Assembly (NCBI GenBank): GCA_027080315.1
Contig: JALWSI010000022.1
Span: forward strand, 1 to 9,098
Length of the DNA: 9,098 nucleotides
Direction: 5' to 3'
DNA from: a bacterium
Lineage (GTDB): Bacteria; Thermosulfidibacterota; Thermosulfidibacteria; Thermosulfidibacterales; JALWSI01
Numbering within the stretch: the first letter of the stretch is position 1; every line of letters starts with the position of its first letter. Made by a program: the position numbers and the translations under genes. Shown one piece after another: positions 1 through 7,019 of the stretch. Under the pieces are notes generated by a model. The model saw only the letters and a program-made list of their open reading frames with translations, made no database searches and was not told the DNA's origin.

Positions 1-1371
1 CCCGACGAGGGCAGAAACGCAGAGGTTGCCCGGGAGATGGTTGAGGAGGGTCACTGGTTGCCACCTACCCTCAACGGTGAGGTTAGATACCAGAAGCCCC
101 CGCTCTACTACTGGCTTGTGGCCTCATCCTTTAAGGCCTTTGGTAAAGGGGAGTTCCCCGCGAGGCTTCCCTCTGCCCTGGCGGCTATGCTCTGCGTATT
201 CGCAACGGTGTTGCTGGGCAGAAGGATCTTGGGACTTCAGAGGGGTCTATGGGCAGGGGTGATTCTCTCCACTTCCCTAATCTTTGCAGTCTATTCCCAC
301 ATCGTCATCTTTGACATGGTGCTCACTCTATTGATTCTCGCGTCAATCGCTCTCTTCTATCTGGGGCTTATTGGGGAGAGACCCTGGTACCTACGCCTCT
401 CTGCCCTCTTTGCAGCCCTGGCCTTTCTCACCAAGGGGCCCATCGGCGTTCTCATACCCGCCATGGCCTTGGTTCCGGTGATGATCTATCGTGGGGCCAA
501 GGGGGAGCCAATGAGAATACCCTGGCTCTCCATGTCGCTCATTTTCGTGGTGGTGGCCCTGCCAACCTACCTTGTGGCAGAGATACGGGCCCCGGGTTAC
601 TGTTACCACTTCTTCTGGGAGGAGAACGTGCTGCGTTACCTCACCCCAAGATTCCACCGGGAAGGCCCCGTTTTCTACTACCTGTTGGTGATCTTAGCGG
701 GGCTATTCCCCTGGACCTGGATGCTCAAGGATCTTCCCTCAACGGTTAGTAAGATGAAGCGTGAGAAGATGGAGGTTCTTATTCTGCTGGGCTCTTGGAT
801 ACTGCTGCCCACCCTTTTCTTCACCCTCTCCCACTCCAAGCTGCCCCATTACATACTGCCCACCTTCCCCGGTTGGGCCCTCATGCTGGCAGATGGCCTG
901 CCGGAGATGGTCACAGTCCAGGCAAAGAGAAGGATTCTCACCACCCTTGGGGCGGCTGGTGTTCTCTATGCCGGGGGACTCTTGTTTATCACCTATCCTG
1001 TGGCTCTCTACCACTCGGCAGCCCCTGTTCTTCAAAGGGCGTCACTGAAACCAGAAGTTCCCCTGGTCGCCTTTAAGGCAAAGAGATACTCTTTGGCCTT
1101 CTACACCGGCAGAAGGCTATTGGCCGTGGAAAATAAAGGGGGTATGGAGAGAACCATAAAGGAGATGGAGTCCCTCTATCTCTTCACAAAGAACAAGGAG
1201 AGGAGGGTGAGGTATATTGAGACCCTTGCCCGCCAGGCAGGTAAAAAGGTGGAGGTGCTTGGAAAGTCACCGCGCTATTTGCTGCTGTTGGTGGTGAGAG
1301 ATGGCTCGGATTCTTCAGAAAAGATCTCCCGCTACCACCTACCCAAAGACCTGTCCAAGAACAAAACTTAG
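1..1371 (+). CDS. ArnT/PMT-like membrane glycosyltransferase, 5' end cut by window edge
   Basis: The reading frame is open from base 1, so the gene begins upstream. The ATG at 37 is internal, because the family's most conserved segment lies partly before it. Visible codons (456) start with PDEGRNAEVAREM, then LNGEVRYQKPPLYYWL. This is the first periplasmic loop of GT-C enzymes of the ArnT/PMT_2 type, with the catalytic-type Asp-Glu at visible residues 2-3. Later family-like stretches are IVIFDMVLTLL, FLTKGPIGVLIPA, FFWEENVLRYL and KLPHYILPTFPGWALM, between many hydrophobic helices, followed by a more polar C-terminal part. Known members move a sugar from an undecaprenyl-phosphate carrier to lipid A or another acceptor on the outer face of the inner membrane. 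Donor and acceptor cannot be read from this sequence. About 20-30 N-terminal residues with the first membrane helix are probably missing. It may or may not be co-transcribed with the next genes; no terminator is visible after it. Confidence 0.88.
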   Translation, partial: PDEGRNAEVAREMVEEGHWLPPTLNGEVRYQKPPLYYWLVASSFKAFGKGEFPARLPSALAAMLCVFATVLLGRRILGLQRGLWAGVILSTSLIFAVYSHIVIFDMVLTLLILASIALFYLGLIGERPWYLRLSALFAALAFLTKGPIGVLIPAMALVPVMIYRGAKGEPMRIPWLSMSLIFVVVALPTYLVAEIRAPGYCYHFFWEENVLRYLTPRFHREGPVFYYLLVILAGLFPWTWMLKDLPSTVSKMKREKMEVLILLGSWILLPTLFFTLSHSKLPHYILPTFPGWALMLADGLPEMVTVQAKRRILTTLGAAGVLYAGGLLFITYPVALYHSAAPVLQRASLKPEVPLVAFKAKRYSLAFYTGRRLLAVENKGGMERTIKEMESLYLFTKNKERRVRYIETLARQAGKKVEVLGKSPRYLLLLVVRDGSDSSEKISRYHLPKDLSKNKT

Positions 1372-1410
1372 GGAACTCTAACCAGATTTGACTTGCTCAG
1401 CCTTAGGTAT

Positions 1411-1440
1411 ATTGGTATTACCAATTATTGGTAAGGTCAG
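1411..1440. promoter_or_regulatory. Predicted FadR/PdhR-type (GntR family) operator in front of lrgA
   Basis: Positions 1411-1425 read ATTGGTATTACCAAT, a perfect 6-3-6 palindrome. It matches the TTGGT-N3-ACCAA pattern known for PdhR, LldR and related FCD-domain GntR regulators. A further ATTGGT at 1427-1432 pairs with the preceding half-site as TTACCAAT-T-ATTGGTAA (1418-1434), so three half-sites alternate in orientation. A possible -35 box, TTGACT, lies at 1388-1393; the -10 region it would need falls on or beside the palindrome, so a bound regulator should block RNA polymerase. No convincing -10 was found at normal spacing. The third gene of the operon downstream encodes a regulator of exactly this class, which makes autoregulation the simplest reading. 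Binding itself is inferred. Confidence 0.82.
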
Positions 1441-1473
1441 ATTCAAGGTTTGGGTTTAAGGAGGTGGCGAGAG

Positions 1474-1812
1474 ATGGAGATCTACCGTGGGTTGGCCATT
1501 ATTCTTGGGTTTCTCTTCTCGGGACAGGCTATATCCAAGTTCACCCATATTCCTGTGCCGGGAAGCGTTCTGGGTATGATCTTTCTCACCTTGGCCCTCA
1601 TGACAGGGGTGGTGAAGCTTGAGCACGTGGAAGAGGTGGGAACCTTTCTCATCAGAAACATGAGCGTTATGTTCATCCCTCCGGGAGTGGGGGTGGTGGT
1701 TTACTGGTCGCTGGTGAAGAGAGACCTTCTTCCAATCTCTGTGGCTCTGGTGGTGAGCTTTGTTCTCACCGTTGTCCTCACCGCCAAGGTGGTTGAGCTA
1801 ATAAGGAGGTGA
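1474..1812 (+). CDS. LrgA/CidA family small membrane protein
   Basis: The predicted protein has 112 residues, mostly in four hydrophobic helices, typical of the LrgA/CidA family (holin-like, about 110-140 residues). Family-like segments are GFLFSGQAISKFTHIPVPGSVLGMIF near the N-terminus, split by a short polar turn, and RNMSVMFIPPGVGVVVYW in the middle. The ATG at 1474 is preferred to a TTG at 1450 because AAGGAGG at 1459-1465 sits eight bases before it and the family N-terminus starts there. LrgA acts with LrgB. The pair was first described as modulating murein hydrolase export and cell lysis. In some Firmicutes the homologous pair (PftAB) is a pyruvate transporter. The stop TGA is four bases before the lrgB ATG, so the two are translated together. 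The operator upstream and the regulator downstream favour a transport role for a small organic acid, but the substrate is unproven. Confidence 0.9.
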   Translation: MEIYRGLAIILGFLFSGQAISKFTHIPVPGSVLGMIFLTLALMTGVVKLEHVEEVGTFLIRNMSVMFIPPGVGVVVYWSLVKRDLLPISVALVVSFVLTVVLTAKVVELIRR

Positions 1813-1816
1813 TGTA

Positions 1817-2503
1817 ATGGGCAGCTTTGGGATCTTTGTAACCATATTTCTATTCTACGGTTTCTCAAAGCTCTTTGAGAAGGGCAAAAAGTTCTACCTC
1901 AATCCCATTCTTTTAAGCATAGTCACCATCTCCCTTTTTCTGAAAAGTACGGGAATCAGCTACGACTATTACATGAAGAGTGCCAGGTTTCTCTTCTTTC
2001 TGCTGGGTCCAGCGGTGGTCTCTCTCTCTATCCCTCTCTACAAAGAGAGAGAGACCATAAAGTCTTACGCCAAAGAGATCGTGGTTGGCATACTCTTCGG
2101 TGGCATGGTGGCTGCACTTTCAGCCGTATTGATCGCCAAGTTCCTGGGAGCCGACAAAACCGTGGTCTTGAGCATAGCCCCCAAGAGCGTCACCACCGCC
2201 ATTGCCATTGGAATAAGCGACAAGATAGGTGGTATTCCTGCACTTACGGCGGTTCTGGTTATCATCACCGGGATAATGGGCAACGCCGTGGGGGTAGAGG
2301 TGTTGAATCTGGCCAGAATTAAAGACCGTGTGGCGAGAGGACTTGGTATGGGGGTCACCTCTCACGGTCTGGGGACCGCCAGAATCATTCTTGATGACGA
2401 GCTGAGTGGGGCGGTTAGTGGGCTCTCAATAGCCCTCAATGGCATATACACCTCTTTCATGCTTCCCTACCTCATGGTGTTACTCATGAGGTTCTTTAAC
2501 TAA
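1817..2503 (+). CDS. LrgB/CidB family membrane protein
   Basis: This 228-residue protein has about six or seven hydrophobic segments and is full length for the LrgB/CidB/YohK family. Diagnostic stretches are LGPAVVSLSIPLYK (around residues 63-76), APKSVTTAIAIGIS (around 121-134), GIMGNAVG and the SHGLGTARI motif (around 182-190). The start at 1817 is supported by AGGAGG at 1804-1809. A competing ATG at 1812 is followed at once by TAA and lies too close to the Shine-Dalgarno. LrgB is the larger partner of LrgA; together they form an inner-membrane complex implicated in pyruvate uptake or export, or in lysis control. The stop is nine bases before the GntR regulator gene, which places that regulator in the same transcript. 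Confidence 0.92.
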   Translation: MGSFGIFVTIFLFYGFSKLFEKGKKFYLNPILLSIVTISLFLKSTGISYDYYMKSARFLFFLLGPAVVSLSIPLYKERETIKSYAKEIVVGILFGGMVAALSAVLIAKFLGADKTVVLSIAPKSVTTAIAIGISDKIGGIPALTAVLVIITGIMGNAVGVEVLNLARIKDRVARGLGMGVTSHGLGTARIILDDELSGAVSGLSIALNGIYTSFMLPYLMVLLMRFFN

Positions 2504-2512
2504 GGTGGATCC

Positions 2513-3268
2513 ATGTTCAAAAAGATAAGACCTAAGCGGATAAGCGACGAGATAGTTGAGCATATCCGTGAGCTTATCCTTGATGGCAAACTGAAGCCCG
2601 GAGACCAGCTACCCCCAGAGAGGGAGCTGGCCCTCAAGATGGGGGTGAGCCGACCTGTGGTGAGGGAGGCCATAATAAGGCTCATAGACATGGGCTATTT
2701 AGAGAACCTTCAGGGAAGGGGCACCTTTGTTAGGTCCATAACAGACGACTACATTAAGAATCCTCCCATCCACGACCTTCTCAACAAGGGGGCAATGGCC
2801 CTTCCAGAGATCGTTGAGGTGCGCAAGATCTTTGAGACCTGGGCCGCAGCCACCGCGGCCCTTAGGGCCACCCATAGGGAGCTGGAGCAGATGGAGGAGT
2901 ATCTGGGGGAGATGGAGGATGCCAAGAATCGGGGAGAGCTTGGCCATGTGGCAGATGCCAACTTTCATCTGGCCATCTCTTATGCCACCCACAACACCTT
3001 GCTTATTCACCTTATGAACAGCATCTACGAGATGATAGAGCAGGTTACCTACGAGATTGGCGTGAAGATGTACAACGATCCCCAGAGTTATCAAGACCTT
3101 TTTGATCAGCACGTGGCTATCTTTAAAGCCATAAAAGAGAAGGATCCTGATGGGGCATACATAAAGATGCTCAACCACATGCACTACATAGAGACAGAGA
3201 TCAGAAGGCAGTTGAAAGGCACCACAAGGTTCCAGGCCTCGGTTTACCCATTGTACAGAAAGGTCTGA
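2513..3268 (+). CDS. FadR/PdhR-subfamily GntR transcriptional regulator
   Basis: The 251-residue protein has an N-terminal winged helix-turn-helix (residues 8-75, with KPGDQLPPERELA and the recognition stretch SRPVVREAI, then the wing QGRGTFV). An all-helical FCD effector domain follows (about 97-235). Asp148, His152, His200 and His222 fit the D-x3-H...H...H metal site of FCD regulators that sense small carboxylates, such as the pyruvate and lactate regulators. E. coli FadR lacks this site. The ATG at 2513 is preceded by AAGGTGG. As third gene of the lrgAB operon, and with a perfect PdhR-like operator upstream of lrgA, it most likely represses its own operon and is released by a small acid. 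The last 15 residues are not conserved-looking. The effector is inferred from family membership, not shown by the sequence. Confidence 0.93.
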   Translation: MFKKIRPKRISDEIVEHIRELILDGKLKPGDQLPPERELALKMGVSRPVVREAIIRLIDMGYLENLQGRGTFVRSITDDYIKNPPIHDLLNKGAMALPEIVEVRKIFETWAAATAALRATHRELEQMEEYLGEMEDAKNRGELGHVADANFHLAISYATHNTLLIHLMNSIYEMIEQVTYEIGVKMYNDPQSYQDLFDQHVAIFKAIKEKDPDGAYIKMLNHMHYIETEIRRQLKGTTRFQASVYPLYRKV

Positions 3269-3348
3269 AGGTGTGCTCTGGGTTGGAGTATGAGAGGAGA
3301 CTCTTCCACCATGTTTTCCATAGGCTTAGAGGCTTTTAATTAAGGGGC
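3269..3348. other. Convergent intergenic gap, no terminator recognised
   Basis: Eighty bases separate the stop codons of the GntR regulator (+) and the response regulator (-). Such a gap should stop transcription from both sides. I see only weak pairing, a TTAATTAA palindrome in an AT-rich patch around 3336-3345, and no GC-rich hairpin with a T-run. Termination here is probably Rho-dependent or leaky. Confidence 0.4.
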
Positions 3349-4674
3349 TTAGGTTAATTTAGAGGGTTTAATCTCGTACTTCTTCATCTTGTACTGAAGC
3401 ATCCTTCTCGTGATGCCGAGCCTCTCGGCTGCTTTGGTCTGGTTTCCTCCACACTCCTGCAAGGCCTGGGTGATCATCTCTCTCTCCAGGTTCTCCACCA
3501 TGTCTATGAGGGAGCCCGGTTGGGTTTTGGGGCTTATTCCCTCTTTGAGCCAGTGGGGAAGGTGTCTCTCTGTTAACACCTTCTCCCCTTCCTCACACAG
3601 GGCTAAGGCGCTCTCAATGGCGTTCTCCAGCTCCCTCACGTTTCCCGGCCATGTGTGCCCAACGAGGATCTCCATGGCACGGCGGGAGACCTTCTCTACC
3701 TTAACCCCTGTGCGCACCCCGTACTTCTTGATGAAGTGGGAGACCAGGTGGGGTATATCCTCTCTTCGCTCCCTTAATGGAGGGATTGGGATCTCCATCA
3801 CCCTTAGCCGATAGAACAGGTCTCTTCTGAAAGCGTCTTCTTCAACAAGCCTGTTCAAATCCTTGGTGGTTGTGGCTATGATTCTCACCTTGGGAGACTC
3901 TGAGACCCGTTGCTCTTCAAGAAAGCGGAGCAGCCTTGCCTGTACCTCCAAAGAGAGCTCGTCAACCTGGTCAAGCAATAGGGTGCCTCCCTCTGCCAGG
4001 TCTATCTTGCCCTTTGCAGTCCCTTCTCCAAAGAGCTCCTCTTCAACCCTCTGGGGTTCCAAGAAGGCGCAGTCAACCAAGGTGAAGGGCCCATGGCTAC
4101 GGGGGCTTGTGGAGTGGATAACCTTGGCAACAAGCTCTTTGCCAACCCCCGTTTCTCCCACCAGAAGAAGGGGGGTATCAACCTGGGACGCCTTTCTTAT
4201 GATGGGGATGAGATTTGACATGGCTGGGCTCTCCGCCACTATGGAGAACTCCCGATAGAGGGTGCTGAGAGAGGCTTTAAGGGCTATGTTCTCCTTGGTT
4301 ATCCTTTGGAGCTTGAGGGCCCGGGAGACCACGATCTTGAGTTGATCAACGTCAACCGGTTTCAGAATGTAGTCAAAGGCTCCCAGTTTCATGGCCTTAA
4401 CAGCGGTTTCCACGGTTCCAAAGGCTGTTAGCAGAATCACAGGAACCTCAGACGAGAGCTTCCGTATCCCTTCAAGCAGAGAGAGCCCGTCTCCCCCTGG
4501 CATTTTAAGGTCGGTGATCACAAGCTCGTAGTCCCCTTCCTTGAAACGTTGCAGGGCCTTTTCACCGCTTGTGGCGGTATCTACCACATAGCCCTCGTCC
4601 ATGAGGTGCAGGGACATCACCTTGCAGAAGTGGGGCTCATCATCCACCAGAAGCAACCGGGCTTTCTCTTCCAT
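3349..4674 (-). CDS. NtrC-family response regulator lacking the GAFTGA loop
   Basis: The protein has 441 residues in the usual three-part layout. The receiver domain (about 5-118) has acidic pocket D11/D12, phospho-acceptor D55, T83 and K105. The AAA+ domain (about 143-375) has Walker A GETGVGKE at 173-180, arginine fingers R283 and R289, and a sensor II WPGNVREL with R348. The Fis-type helix-turn-helix lies at about 408-434. Two parts are abnormal. Between ELFG (214-217) and GGTLLLD (229-235) there are only about a dozen residues, and GAFTGA, which contacts sigma-54, is absent. The Walker B pair is D235-Q236 instead of Asp-Glu. It is therefore probably a phosphorylation-controlled DNA-binding regulator that does not open sigma-54 promoters, perhaps sigma-70-dependent like the GAFTGA-less NtrC of Rhodobacter capsulatus. 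No histidine kinase lies in the window. The ATG is 14 bases from the nearest AGGAGG, an unusually long gap. Confidence 0.93.
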   Translation of the reverse strand: MEEKARLLLVDDEPHFCKVMSLHLMDEGYVVDTATSGEKALQRFKEGDYELVITDLKMPGGDGLSLLEGIRKLSSEVPVILLTAFGTVETAVKAMKLGAFDYILKPVDVDQLKIVVSRALKLQRITKENIALKASLSTLYREFSIVAESPAMSNLIPIIRKASQVDTPLLLVGETGVGKELVAKVIHSTSPRSHGPFTLVDCAFLEPQRVEEELFGEGTAKGKIDLAEGGTLLLDQVDELSLEVQARLLRFLEEQRVSESPKVRIIATTTKDLNRLVEEDAFRRDLFYRLRVMEIPIPPLRERREDIPHLVSHFIKKYGVRTGVKVEKVSRRAMEILVGHTWPGNVRELENAIESALALCEEGEKVLTERHLPHWLKEGISPKTQPGSLIDMVENLEREMITQALQECGGNQTKAAERLGITRRMLQYKMKKYEIKPSKLT

Positions 4675-4717
4675 AACCAGAGAGGTGGCCTCCTTACCGT
4701 TTTAGATTCCTCTTCAA

Positions 4718-4746
4718 AGGATACCCTTTGTGGTCTTAAAAGACAA
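4718..4746 (-). promoter_or_regulatory. Possible sigma-70 promoter of the response regulator gene
   Basis: On the minus strand TTGTCT (4746-4741) and TATCCT (4723-4718) are separated by 17 bases. The start codon lies about 44 bases downstream of the -10 box. Each box is a partial match to consensus, so this is a candidate only. No -24/-12 sigma-54 element (GG-N10-GC) was recognised in the divergent region. Confidence 0.35.
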
Positions 4747-4790
4747 AATGTGTGGAGCATATCCATTTTTCAATCTTCTCTTTGGTGCAA

Positions 4791-4820
4791 TTGACACTTA
4801 CTTAAGGCTTTACCTATACT
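4791..4820 (+). promoter_or_regulatory. Strong sigma-70 promoter for glyQ
   Basis: TTGACA (4791-4796) is a perfect -35 box. TATACT (4815-4820) is a five-of-six -10 box, with an 18-base spacer. Transcription would start near 4827, leaving a short leader with AGGAGG at 4845-4850 before the glyQ ATG. There is no room for a T-box or other large leader element. This should be the main promoter of the glyQ-CNNM-hemL operon. Confidence 0.8.
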
Positions 4821-4860
4821 CACAGTACCGGCGCACGAGGAAGAAGGAGGAGCTGCAAAG

Positions 4861-5766
4861 ATGATGACATACCAAGAGGTGGTTATCGCCTTAGAGAGGT
4901 TCTGGGCAGAGAGAAACTGCATTATTCAGCAGCCTTACGATGTAGAGGTGGGGGCTGGGACCATGAATCCCGCCACCCTTCTCAGGGTGCTTGGCCCTGA
5001 GCCCTGGAGGGTGGCCTACGTTGAACCCTCTCGCAGACCCACAGACGGTAGATATGGAGAGAACCCCAACAGGCTGCAGCACTACTACCAGTATCAGGTG
5101 ATATTGAAGCCTTCTCCTGTTGATGTTCAGGAGCTTTACCTGGACAGTCTTCGGGCGCTGGGAATAGACCCCATGAAGCACGACATAAGGTTTGTTGAAG
5201 ACGACTGGGAGTCTCCCACCCTTGGAGCCTGGGGCATTGGATGGGAGGTGTGGCTGGATGGAATGGAGATCACCCAGTTCACCTACTTTCAGCAGGCTGG
5301 AGGGATAGACCTGAAGCCCGTATGCGTGGAGCTAACCTATGGGCTTGAGCGTATTGCCATGTATATTCAGGGAGTTGACAGCGTCTTTGACCTTGTGTGG
5401 GCAGACAATGTGACCTACGGAGACGTTCACCACCAAGGTGAGGTGGAATGGTCTCACTTCAACTTTGAAGAGGCTGACGTGGCAATGCACTTCAAGATGT
5501 TTGAGATGTGCGAAGAGGAGTCTCGCCGTTTGATTGAGAAGGGGCTTGTGTTGCCCGCTTACGACTACTGTCTCAAGTGCTCTCACCTCTTCAACATACT
5601 TGATGCCCGTAACGCCATAAGCGTGAAGGAACGCACCTCTTACGTGGCCCGGGTGCGCCAGCTGGCCAGGGCCTGCGCCGAGGCCTATGTGAAGCAGAGA
5701 GAAGAGATGGGCTTCCCTCTGCTTGCCAAGGGGGCCTTTGGCTACAAACCCAGGGAGGCTGAGTAG
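4861..5766 (+). CDS. glyQ: Glycyl-tRNA synthetase alpha subunit
   Basis: This 301-residue protein aligns by eye along its whole length with bacterial GlyQ. Visible signatures are [19 protein letters not shown] (about 21-39), [20 protein letters not shown] (44-63) followed by RYGENPNR, the long [18 protein letters not shown] block, and [20 protein letters not shown]. It is the class II catalytic subunit of the alpha2beta2 enzyme, which activates glycine and charges tRNA-Gly in the cytoplasm. It needs the beta subunit GlyS for tRNA binding and activity. AGGAGG lies ten bases before the ATG at 4861; a second ATG at 4864 is an equally possible start. In most bacteria with this enzyme type glyS follows directly, but here a membrane-protein gene does, so glyS must lie elsewhere. 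The C-terminus overlaps the ribosome-binding region of the next gene. Confidence 0.97.
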
Positions 5767-5768
5767 AG

Positions 5769-7019
5769 ATAGACTGGGTTCCACTTTTAGCGGTTCTGCT
5801 CATACTGCTTGAGGGGTTCTTCTCGGGTACCGAGATGGCCCTCATCTCGTGCAGCCCCATCAGACTCAAGAGGCTTGCAGAAGAGGGGAAGGGGAGGGCT
5901 GCGTATAGGTTTGTGGAGGATCCAGACACCCTCTTTGGAACCACCTTGCTGGGAACGAATCTGTGCGTGGTGCTTAACTCCTCTTTGATCACCTGGTATC
6001 TTCACTCTCGCTTTCACTTTGGCTCTGAGCTCTACACCACTTTGATACTCTCTCCCCTTGTGCTTCTCTTCGGAGAGATGCTTCCCAAGGCCTATGCCCA
6101 GGCCCACGCCGAAAGGGTTAGCCTTGCCATGGCGCCTCCTCTAAGGGTCTTTTCCAAGATCTTCTCCCCTGTGAGCAGCGTTATTCTCTTTGCCGCCAGG
6201 CTTCTGTCTCCTGGAAATGGGGACGAGAAGAGGGAGAGCCTTCTGGTGAAGAAGGATGAGCTGAGAATCCTGCTTGATCGCCACTTTGAGGGCAGCGACA
6301 TACTTGAGGAAGAGAAAGAGCTCATCAAGAACATCTTCTCTTTTGGAGAGGTGAGGGTGAGGGAGGCCATGAAGCCTCTAATAGAGGTTGTGGCTCTAAG
6401 CGAGGATGACACCGTTTCAAAGGCTGCAAGGCTAATCCAAGAAAGGGGGTTTTCCCGCCTTCCCGTATATTCTGGCAATATCTTTAGAATCATAGGCATA
6501 GTTTCGGTTTACGACATTATGGAGGCAGAAGACGGAAACCTCAAGGTGAGAGAGTTTCTTAGAAACACCTTGTTCGTGTCTGAGTTCACCTATGTTGATG
6601 AGCTTTTGAGGCGAATGCAGATGGAGAAACAGGTTATGGCCGTTGTGGTGAACGAACACGGGGCATGCGTGGGTATCATCACTATTGAGGACATACTTGA
6701 GGAGCTTGTGGGGGAGATAGAGGACGAGTACGACCTATCCCTATCAAGGGGGGAAAAGAGGATTGAGAAGGTGAAGGGCGGATACGTGGTAGATGCCCGA
6801 ATAGAGCTTGATCTACTTGAGGAGAAGCTGGGGCTGAAGTTTGAGAAGAGGGACGTTTATGAGACCTTGGCGGGACACATCTTGTTCCACACGGGGTTTA
6901 TCCCAGAAGAGGGATCAAGGATAACCTTGGACGGCGTCACCATGTACATTCAGGAGACAACCGAGAGAAGTGTGAGAAAGGTGTTCATTCCTGAGATGTC
7001 TTGCTCAGTTAAGCTGTGA
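5769..7019 (+). CDS. CNNM/CorC-type transmembrane protein with CBS domains (predicted ATA start)
   Basis: Domains in order (numbering from the ATA) are a DUF21/CNNM membrane domain (about 1-145), a CBS pair (about 190-312) and a C-terminal CorC_HlyC domain (about 325-410). Clear motifs are LLILLEGFFSGTEMAL in helix 1, LLGTNLCVVLNSS, the FGEMLPK motif, and EHGACVGIITIEDILEELVGEI at the end of the second CBS. Family members are linked to Mg2+ or divalent cation efflux, or appear as TlyC/HlyC-like proteins. Length would be 416 residues. The first usable ATG is at 5835, but starting there removes helix 1 and its conserved EGFFSGTE segment. The frame upstream is open only to a TGA at 5760-5762 and holds no ATG, GTG or TTG. 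AGGGAGG at 5752-5758 sits ten bases before ATA at 5769, giving (M)DWVPLLAVLL. I place the start there, with moderate certainty. The stop is 14 bases before hemL. Confidence 0.85.
   Translation: MDWVPLLAVLLILLEGFFSGTEMALISCSPIRLKRLAEEGKGRAAYRFVEDPDTLFGTTLLGTNLCVVLNSSLITWYLHSRFHFGSELYTTLILSPLVLLFGEMLPKAYAQAHAERVSLAMAPPLRVFSKIFSPVSSVILFAARLLSPGNGDEKRESLLVKKDELRILLDRHFEGSDILEEEKELIKNIFSFGEVRVREAMKPLIEVVALSEDDTVSKAARLIQERGFSRLPVYSGNIFRIIGIVSVYDIMEAEDGNLKVREFLRNTLFVSEFTYVDELLRRMQMEKQVMAVVVNEHGACVGIITIEDILEELVGEIEDEYDLSLSRGEKRIEKVKGGYVVDARIELDLLEEKLGLKFEKRDVYETLAGHILFHTGFIPEEGSRITLDGVTMYIQETTERSVRKVFIPEMSCSVKL

Follow-up and report, generated by a model that had tools for sequence, protein, structure and literature searches.

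A predicted self-regulated operon joining lrgAB to an LldR-like FCD regulator

The LrgAB proteins, which were long seen as holin/antiholin-like agents of cell death, are now being reinterpreted as transporters of small acids. The plastid member of the family, PLGG1, transports glycolate and glycerate, the PftAB pair of Bacillus subtilis is a pyruvate transporter (PMC5626966), and YohJK of Escherichia coli has a putative role in 3-hydroxypropionate transport (PMC7642389). There is also precedent for an FCD regulator that exerts one-component control over an LrgAB homologue: the E. coli FCD-type GntR protein YieP has yohJK in its regulon as defined by ChIP-exo and RNA-seq, and deletion of yieP raises yohJK (PMC7642389). 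The combination of an in-operon regulator, a transporter and a TGGTN3ACCA-type operator is likewise standard for LldR. Both the parts and the regulatory logic of the locus described here are therefore familiar, and the surprise that it offers is modest. Nonetheless, lrgAB accompanied by an apparent carboxylate-sensing regulator and an adjacent operator constitutes a simple test case, in which the ligand of the regulator would suggest the substrate of the transporter.

The lrgAB-gntR locus

The window that we analysed is a whole contig (C22) of 9098 bases from a 1.84 Mb draft genome (completeness 94%, contamination 2.8%), and its source lineage is sparsely sampled, with nine genomes for the phylum. 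A mannosyltransferase-type gene ends at 1371 and is followed, after 39 bases, by a palindrome and then by three genes:

1411-1425, no strand: predicted operator palindrome ATTGGT-ATT-ACCAAT (ATTGGTATTACCAAT), 48 bases 5' of the lrgA ATG (1474)
1418-1434, no strand: overlapping perfect palindrome of 17 bases, TTACCAAT-T-ATTGGTAA (TTACCAATTATTGGTAA), missed by the first-pass annotation
1474-1812, plus strand: lrgA, small membrane subunit of 112 aa (Pfam LrgA PF03788, 106.9 bits, E=5.3e-31)
1817-2503, plus strand: lrgB, transporter subunit of 228 aa (Pfam LrgB PF04172, 248.2 bits, E=7.3e-74)
2513-3268, plus strand: FCD-domain GntR regulator gene, LldR-like, 251 aa (GntR 78.8 bits, FCD 92.0 bits)

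The LrgA and LrgB partners, encoded in one operon, both exceed the Pfam gathering cut-offs; LrgB also exceeds that of TIGR00659 (256.5 vs 249.7 bits), and the two are respectively 31.9% and 43.5% identical to E. coli YohJ and YohK. Only 4 bases separate lrgA from lrgB and 9 bases separate lrgB from the regulator gene. A Shine-Dalgarno-like AAGGAGGTG precedes both lrgA and lrgB; the list of open reading frames offers an alternative upstream start for lrgA (TTG at 1450), but it is the ATG at 1474 that has the AAGGAGGTG sequence before it. By this spacing the three genes form a tight predicted operon and would be transcribed together. Convergent with it, on the minus strand at 3349-4674, lies a gene for an AtoC/NtrC-type sigma-54 response regulator, which has no adjoining histidine kinase gene within the window.

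The regulator and its orthologues

The first-pass annotation had described the third gene as encoding an FCD-domain GntR regulator with an intact D/H/H/H metal site, and this was borne out. Pfam places a GntR helix-turn-helix (PF00392) at residues 11-73 and an FCD domain (PF07729) at 99-224, a combination that assigns the protein to the FadR subfamily, and the metal-site residues are D148, H152, H200 and H222. The same residues occupy all four aligned positions in E. coli LldR and GlcC; E. coli PdhR differs at three of them. Among the NCBIfam models the best score is that of LldR (PRK10421, 181 bits, below its cut-off of 311), followed by PdhR (PRK09464, 156 bits, below its cut-off of 330) and GlcC (126 bits), and identity to the E. 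coli proteins is 33% for LldR, 35% for PdhR and 30% for GlcC. We place the regulator within the LldR/PdhR/GlcC branch, as an orthologue, by these models, of none of the three: it is LldR-like, not an LldR. The earlier description of it as specifically PdhR-like was too narrow, since the LldR model scores higher and the metal site fits LldR and GlcC rather than E. coli PdhR. The predicted structure (pLDDT 77.7) matched FCD structures in Foldseek with E values of 1e-9 to 1e-7, among them DhdR, a D-2-hydroxyglutarate sensor, and the Corynebacterium glutamicum protein 2di3 (LldR); the structures superpose only loosely, at about 10 A rmsd, and the match does not settle the ligand.

The operator was similarly described at first as PdhR-type, and it does match the PdhR consensus ATTGGTnnnACCAAT at 12 of 12 positions, as well as the E. 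coli pdhR operator ATTGGTAAGACCAAT. On the same 12-position pattern, however, the E. coli pdhR site scores 12/12, the lldP site 11/12 and the glcC/glcD site 10/12, and a GT-N3-AC spacing is common to most FadR-subfamily regulators, including DgoR, ExuR, FadR, GlcC, LldR and PdhR (PMC4494728). Because the lldP and glcC/glcD sites match nearly as well, the motif is one shared by PdhR, LldR and GlcC and cannot tell them apart.

A search of contigs with the regulator gave only two relatives, both 69% identical and both from the same order (G005, locus L019; G003, locus L020). In each, the gene closes an operon of dctPQM (a TRAP transporter), a GlcD-like FAD-linked oxidase and a CCG-domain Fe-S protein, and upstream of dctP there are two TGGTN3ACCA sites, TTTGGTAATACCACT and AATGGTCTTACCATA in L019 and CATGGTAATACCACC and AATGGTAAGACCAAT in L020. 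The target regions of E. coli LldR likewise hold two boxes (PMC10272880). The oxidase and TRAP transporter genes beside the orthologous regulator point to a 2-hydroxyacid as the probable ligand.

On the 3' side of these orthologues (L020:6778-10408, L019:6772-10416) there are genes for a large subunit like that of methylmalonyl-CoA mutase (591 aa), a B12-binding protein encoded separately and an enzyme resembling phenylacetate-CoA ligase. This set may be akin to 2-hydroxyisobutyryl-CoA mutase systems and, together with the TRAP transporter, it may represent an operon for 2-hydroxyacid degradation. The same two genomes carry a second FCD regulator (L025 on contig C117 of G005, L026 on contig C63 of G003), 38-40% identical to that of the window, which is also located 3' of a CCG-domain Fe-S protein gene and in which the first metal ligand is changed from D to N.

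These observations bear on the strongest competing explanation, namely that the regulator genuinely senses pyruvate in the manner of PdhR and that LrgAB, like PftAB, transports pyruvate, so that the locus would be a one-component counterpart of the Bacillus LytST-PftAB switch. The complete match to the PdhR box, the second rank of the PdhR model and the transport of pyruvate by PftAB (PMC5626966) all agree with such a view. We nevertheless consider it unlikely, given the higher score of LldR, the absence from E. coli PdhR of three metal ligands that are intact here, and the location of the orthologous regulators beside an oxidase and a TRAP transporter, not pyruvate dehydrogenase.

Conservation of the layout and the candidate operator

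Within the order, orthologues of LrgB are found in G005 (79% identical) and G006 (77%), each with lrgA adjoining, and at both loci the regulator gene and the motif are absent; G005 holds lrgAB and the orthologous regulator at separate places. Conservation of the lrgAB-GntR arrangement was not found in the order. A further 65 lrgB loci were examined, 14 of them in a domain-wide spread of 386 genomes and 51 in 368 genomes sampled from a single class. None had an adjacent FCD gene in a tblastn search with ten FCD seeds, the GntR-type matches at two loci (L167 and L189) being more than 1 kb away; nor did TGGTN3ACCA occur in the 500-nt stretches upstream of these genes, a weak result as only about 0.5 occurrences would be expected by chance. 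The combination of palindrome, lrgAB and in-operon regulator is therefore not conserved and was seen once among the genomes examined. The first-pass annotation had looked to relatives for such conservation; it fails for the arrangement as a whole but holds for the regulator and its motif, which recur together in the 69% orthologues.

In one genome (L055 of G290, about 200-6640, reversed), lrgAB appears on inspection by eye to lie between isocitrate-lyase-like and LysR genes on one side and a malate-synthase-G-like gene on the other, neighbours that hint at a link to glycolate/glyoxylate metabolism.

The pattern WTGGTN3ACCAW occurs 17 times in the window's own genome, against 15 for a reversed control pattern, and in raw numbers this is unremarkable. 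It is the placement that is distinctive: 16 of the 17 sites fall within open reading frames, and that of the window is the sole intergenic copy found in the draft (open reading frames were called mechanically and sites judged from short stretches; one of the 16 overlaps a start codon). The operon's regulator is, in turn, the only GntR-family protein detected, although in a 94% complete draft a second protein or site could be missing. This placement weighs against the idea that the regulator acts mainly in trans, or on an unrelated acid, its position behind lrgB being incidental and LrgAB having a holin-like or export function unconnected with the regulator's ligand. Such a function would accord with the holin-type activity of Staphylococcus aureus LrgA and CidA (PMC8805020), and related genomes manage their lrgAB without the regulator, in a layout that is not conserved. 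We regard this explanation as quite improbable, since the operator immediately precedes lrgA and the scan of the draft genome gave no second intergenic site.

The perfect ATTGGT-N3-ACCAAT palindrome reported ahead of lrgA was confirmed exactly at 1411-1425. When the 102 intergenic bases (1372-1473) were put through 5000 dinucleotide shuffles, ATTGGTN3ACCAAT never appeared and TGGTN3ACCA appeared in 10; any palindrome with 6-base arms and a 3-base spacer appeared in 117. The evidence therefore lies in the agreement with the GntR motif and not in symmetry alone. The overlapping TTACCAATTATTGGTAA palindrome supplies a third half-site, TTGGT at 1428-1432, whose centre is 12 nt from that of the first palindrome; this fits the 7-12 nt between extra boxes and the centre of the main site found in a survey of GntR operators (PMC4494728). 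An origin of the palindrome by chance, or its use by another DNA-binding protein, is most improbable. Arms and a spacer of these lengths do appear in about 2% of the shuffled sequences, and a second full copy of the 15-mer lies inside an open reading frame (L006), but the specific GntR motif arose in 0/5000 and recurs upstream of the orthologous regulators' operons.

The sole GntR protein detected, the sole intergenic motif and the presence of the motif upstream of the orthologues' operons together make it very probable that the regulator binds the palindrome upstream of lrgA, and the predicted pairing is well supported. A single regulator gene lying next to a single intergenic site is likely to constitute an autoregulatory pair, a local switch on the lrgAB-gntR operon. 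The original proposal of a one-component sensor controlling lrgAB is in this respect strengthened, by uniqueness and by the motifs of the orthologues, but the sensor is not specifically PdhR-like.

Proposed mechanism and comparison with known systems

We suggest that a dimer of the FCD regulator would bind the palindrome ahead of lrgA, and probably also the overlapping third half-site, and would thereby repress lrgA, lrgB and its own gene. The repressor would be released when a small carboxylate, for which 2-hydroxy- and 2-oxo-monocarboxylates (lactate, glycolate and pyruvate, for example) are the likeliest candidates, enters the metal-containing FCD pocket; LrgAB would then be produced and would move that acid, or a close relative of it, across the membrane. 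To this model of a single operon, self-repressed, released by a carboxylate and encoding a transporter of the acid, we assign a probability of about 0.72. What can be read directly from the sequence is the order of the genes and the distances between them, the operator, the fact that the regulator-site pair is unique in the genome, and the motif that accompanies the orthologous regulator. The sign of regulation, repression rather than activation, is one that we infer, since a consensus scan placed no convincing sigma-70 promoter near the operator and E. coli LldR can act as an activator too (PMC10272880). We likewise infer the effector, the substrate and the direction of transport, and a 2-hydroxy- or 2-oxo-monocarboxylate in both roles is the most economical guess.

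A more tentative extension, which we think doubtful, is that in this lineage the regulator was relocated between a TRAP/oxidase operon and lrgAB, in one direction or the other, and that LrgAB became a dedicated inducible transporter for the same 2-hydroxyacid, which might be lactate, glycolate or a branched compound. The window's own draft genome gave no match to DctM, the TRAP permease, which would fit a replacement of that transporter by LrgAB, speculative as this is.

Four described or observed arrangements resemble the locus in part. LytST-pftAB of B. subtilis also has an LrgAB-type transporter under control, pyruvate-responsive in that case (PMC5626966), but this control is by a two-component system, whereas that of the window would be one-component. 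YieP-yohJK resembles the present locus in that an LrgAB homologue is paired with an FCD-type GntR regulator; yieP, however, is unlinked to yohJK, the YieP motif is atTTGTaTGAcaAAT, and YieP is only 25% identical to the window's regulator, which is nearer LldR and PdhR. In E. coli lldPRD, an in-operon FCD regulator with the same four metal ligands accompanies a small-carboxylate transporter and a TGGT-N3-ACCA-type operator lies upstream, but transport there falls to LldP, an unrelated permease, a lactate dehydrogenase gene is part of the operon and the regulators share only 33% identity. The dctPQM-glcD-like-CCG-FCD operon of G003 and G005 has the orthologous regulator and TGGTN3ACCA sites upstream, and differs in its TRAP-type transporter, its oxidase and its lack of lrgAB. 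Searches of the open-access literature on LrgAB with GntR or LldR gave no description of an lrgAB-GntR operon; what is new here in relation to these systems is an LldR-like regulator that shares an operon with lrgAB, with a predicted operator directly upstream, in a layout that is probably self-regulated.
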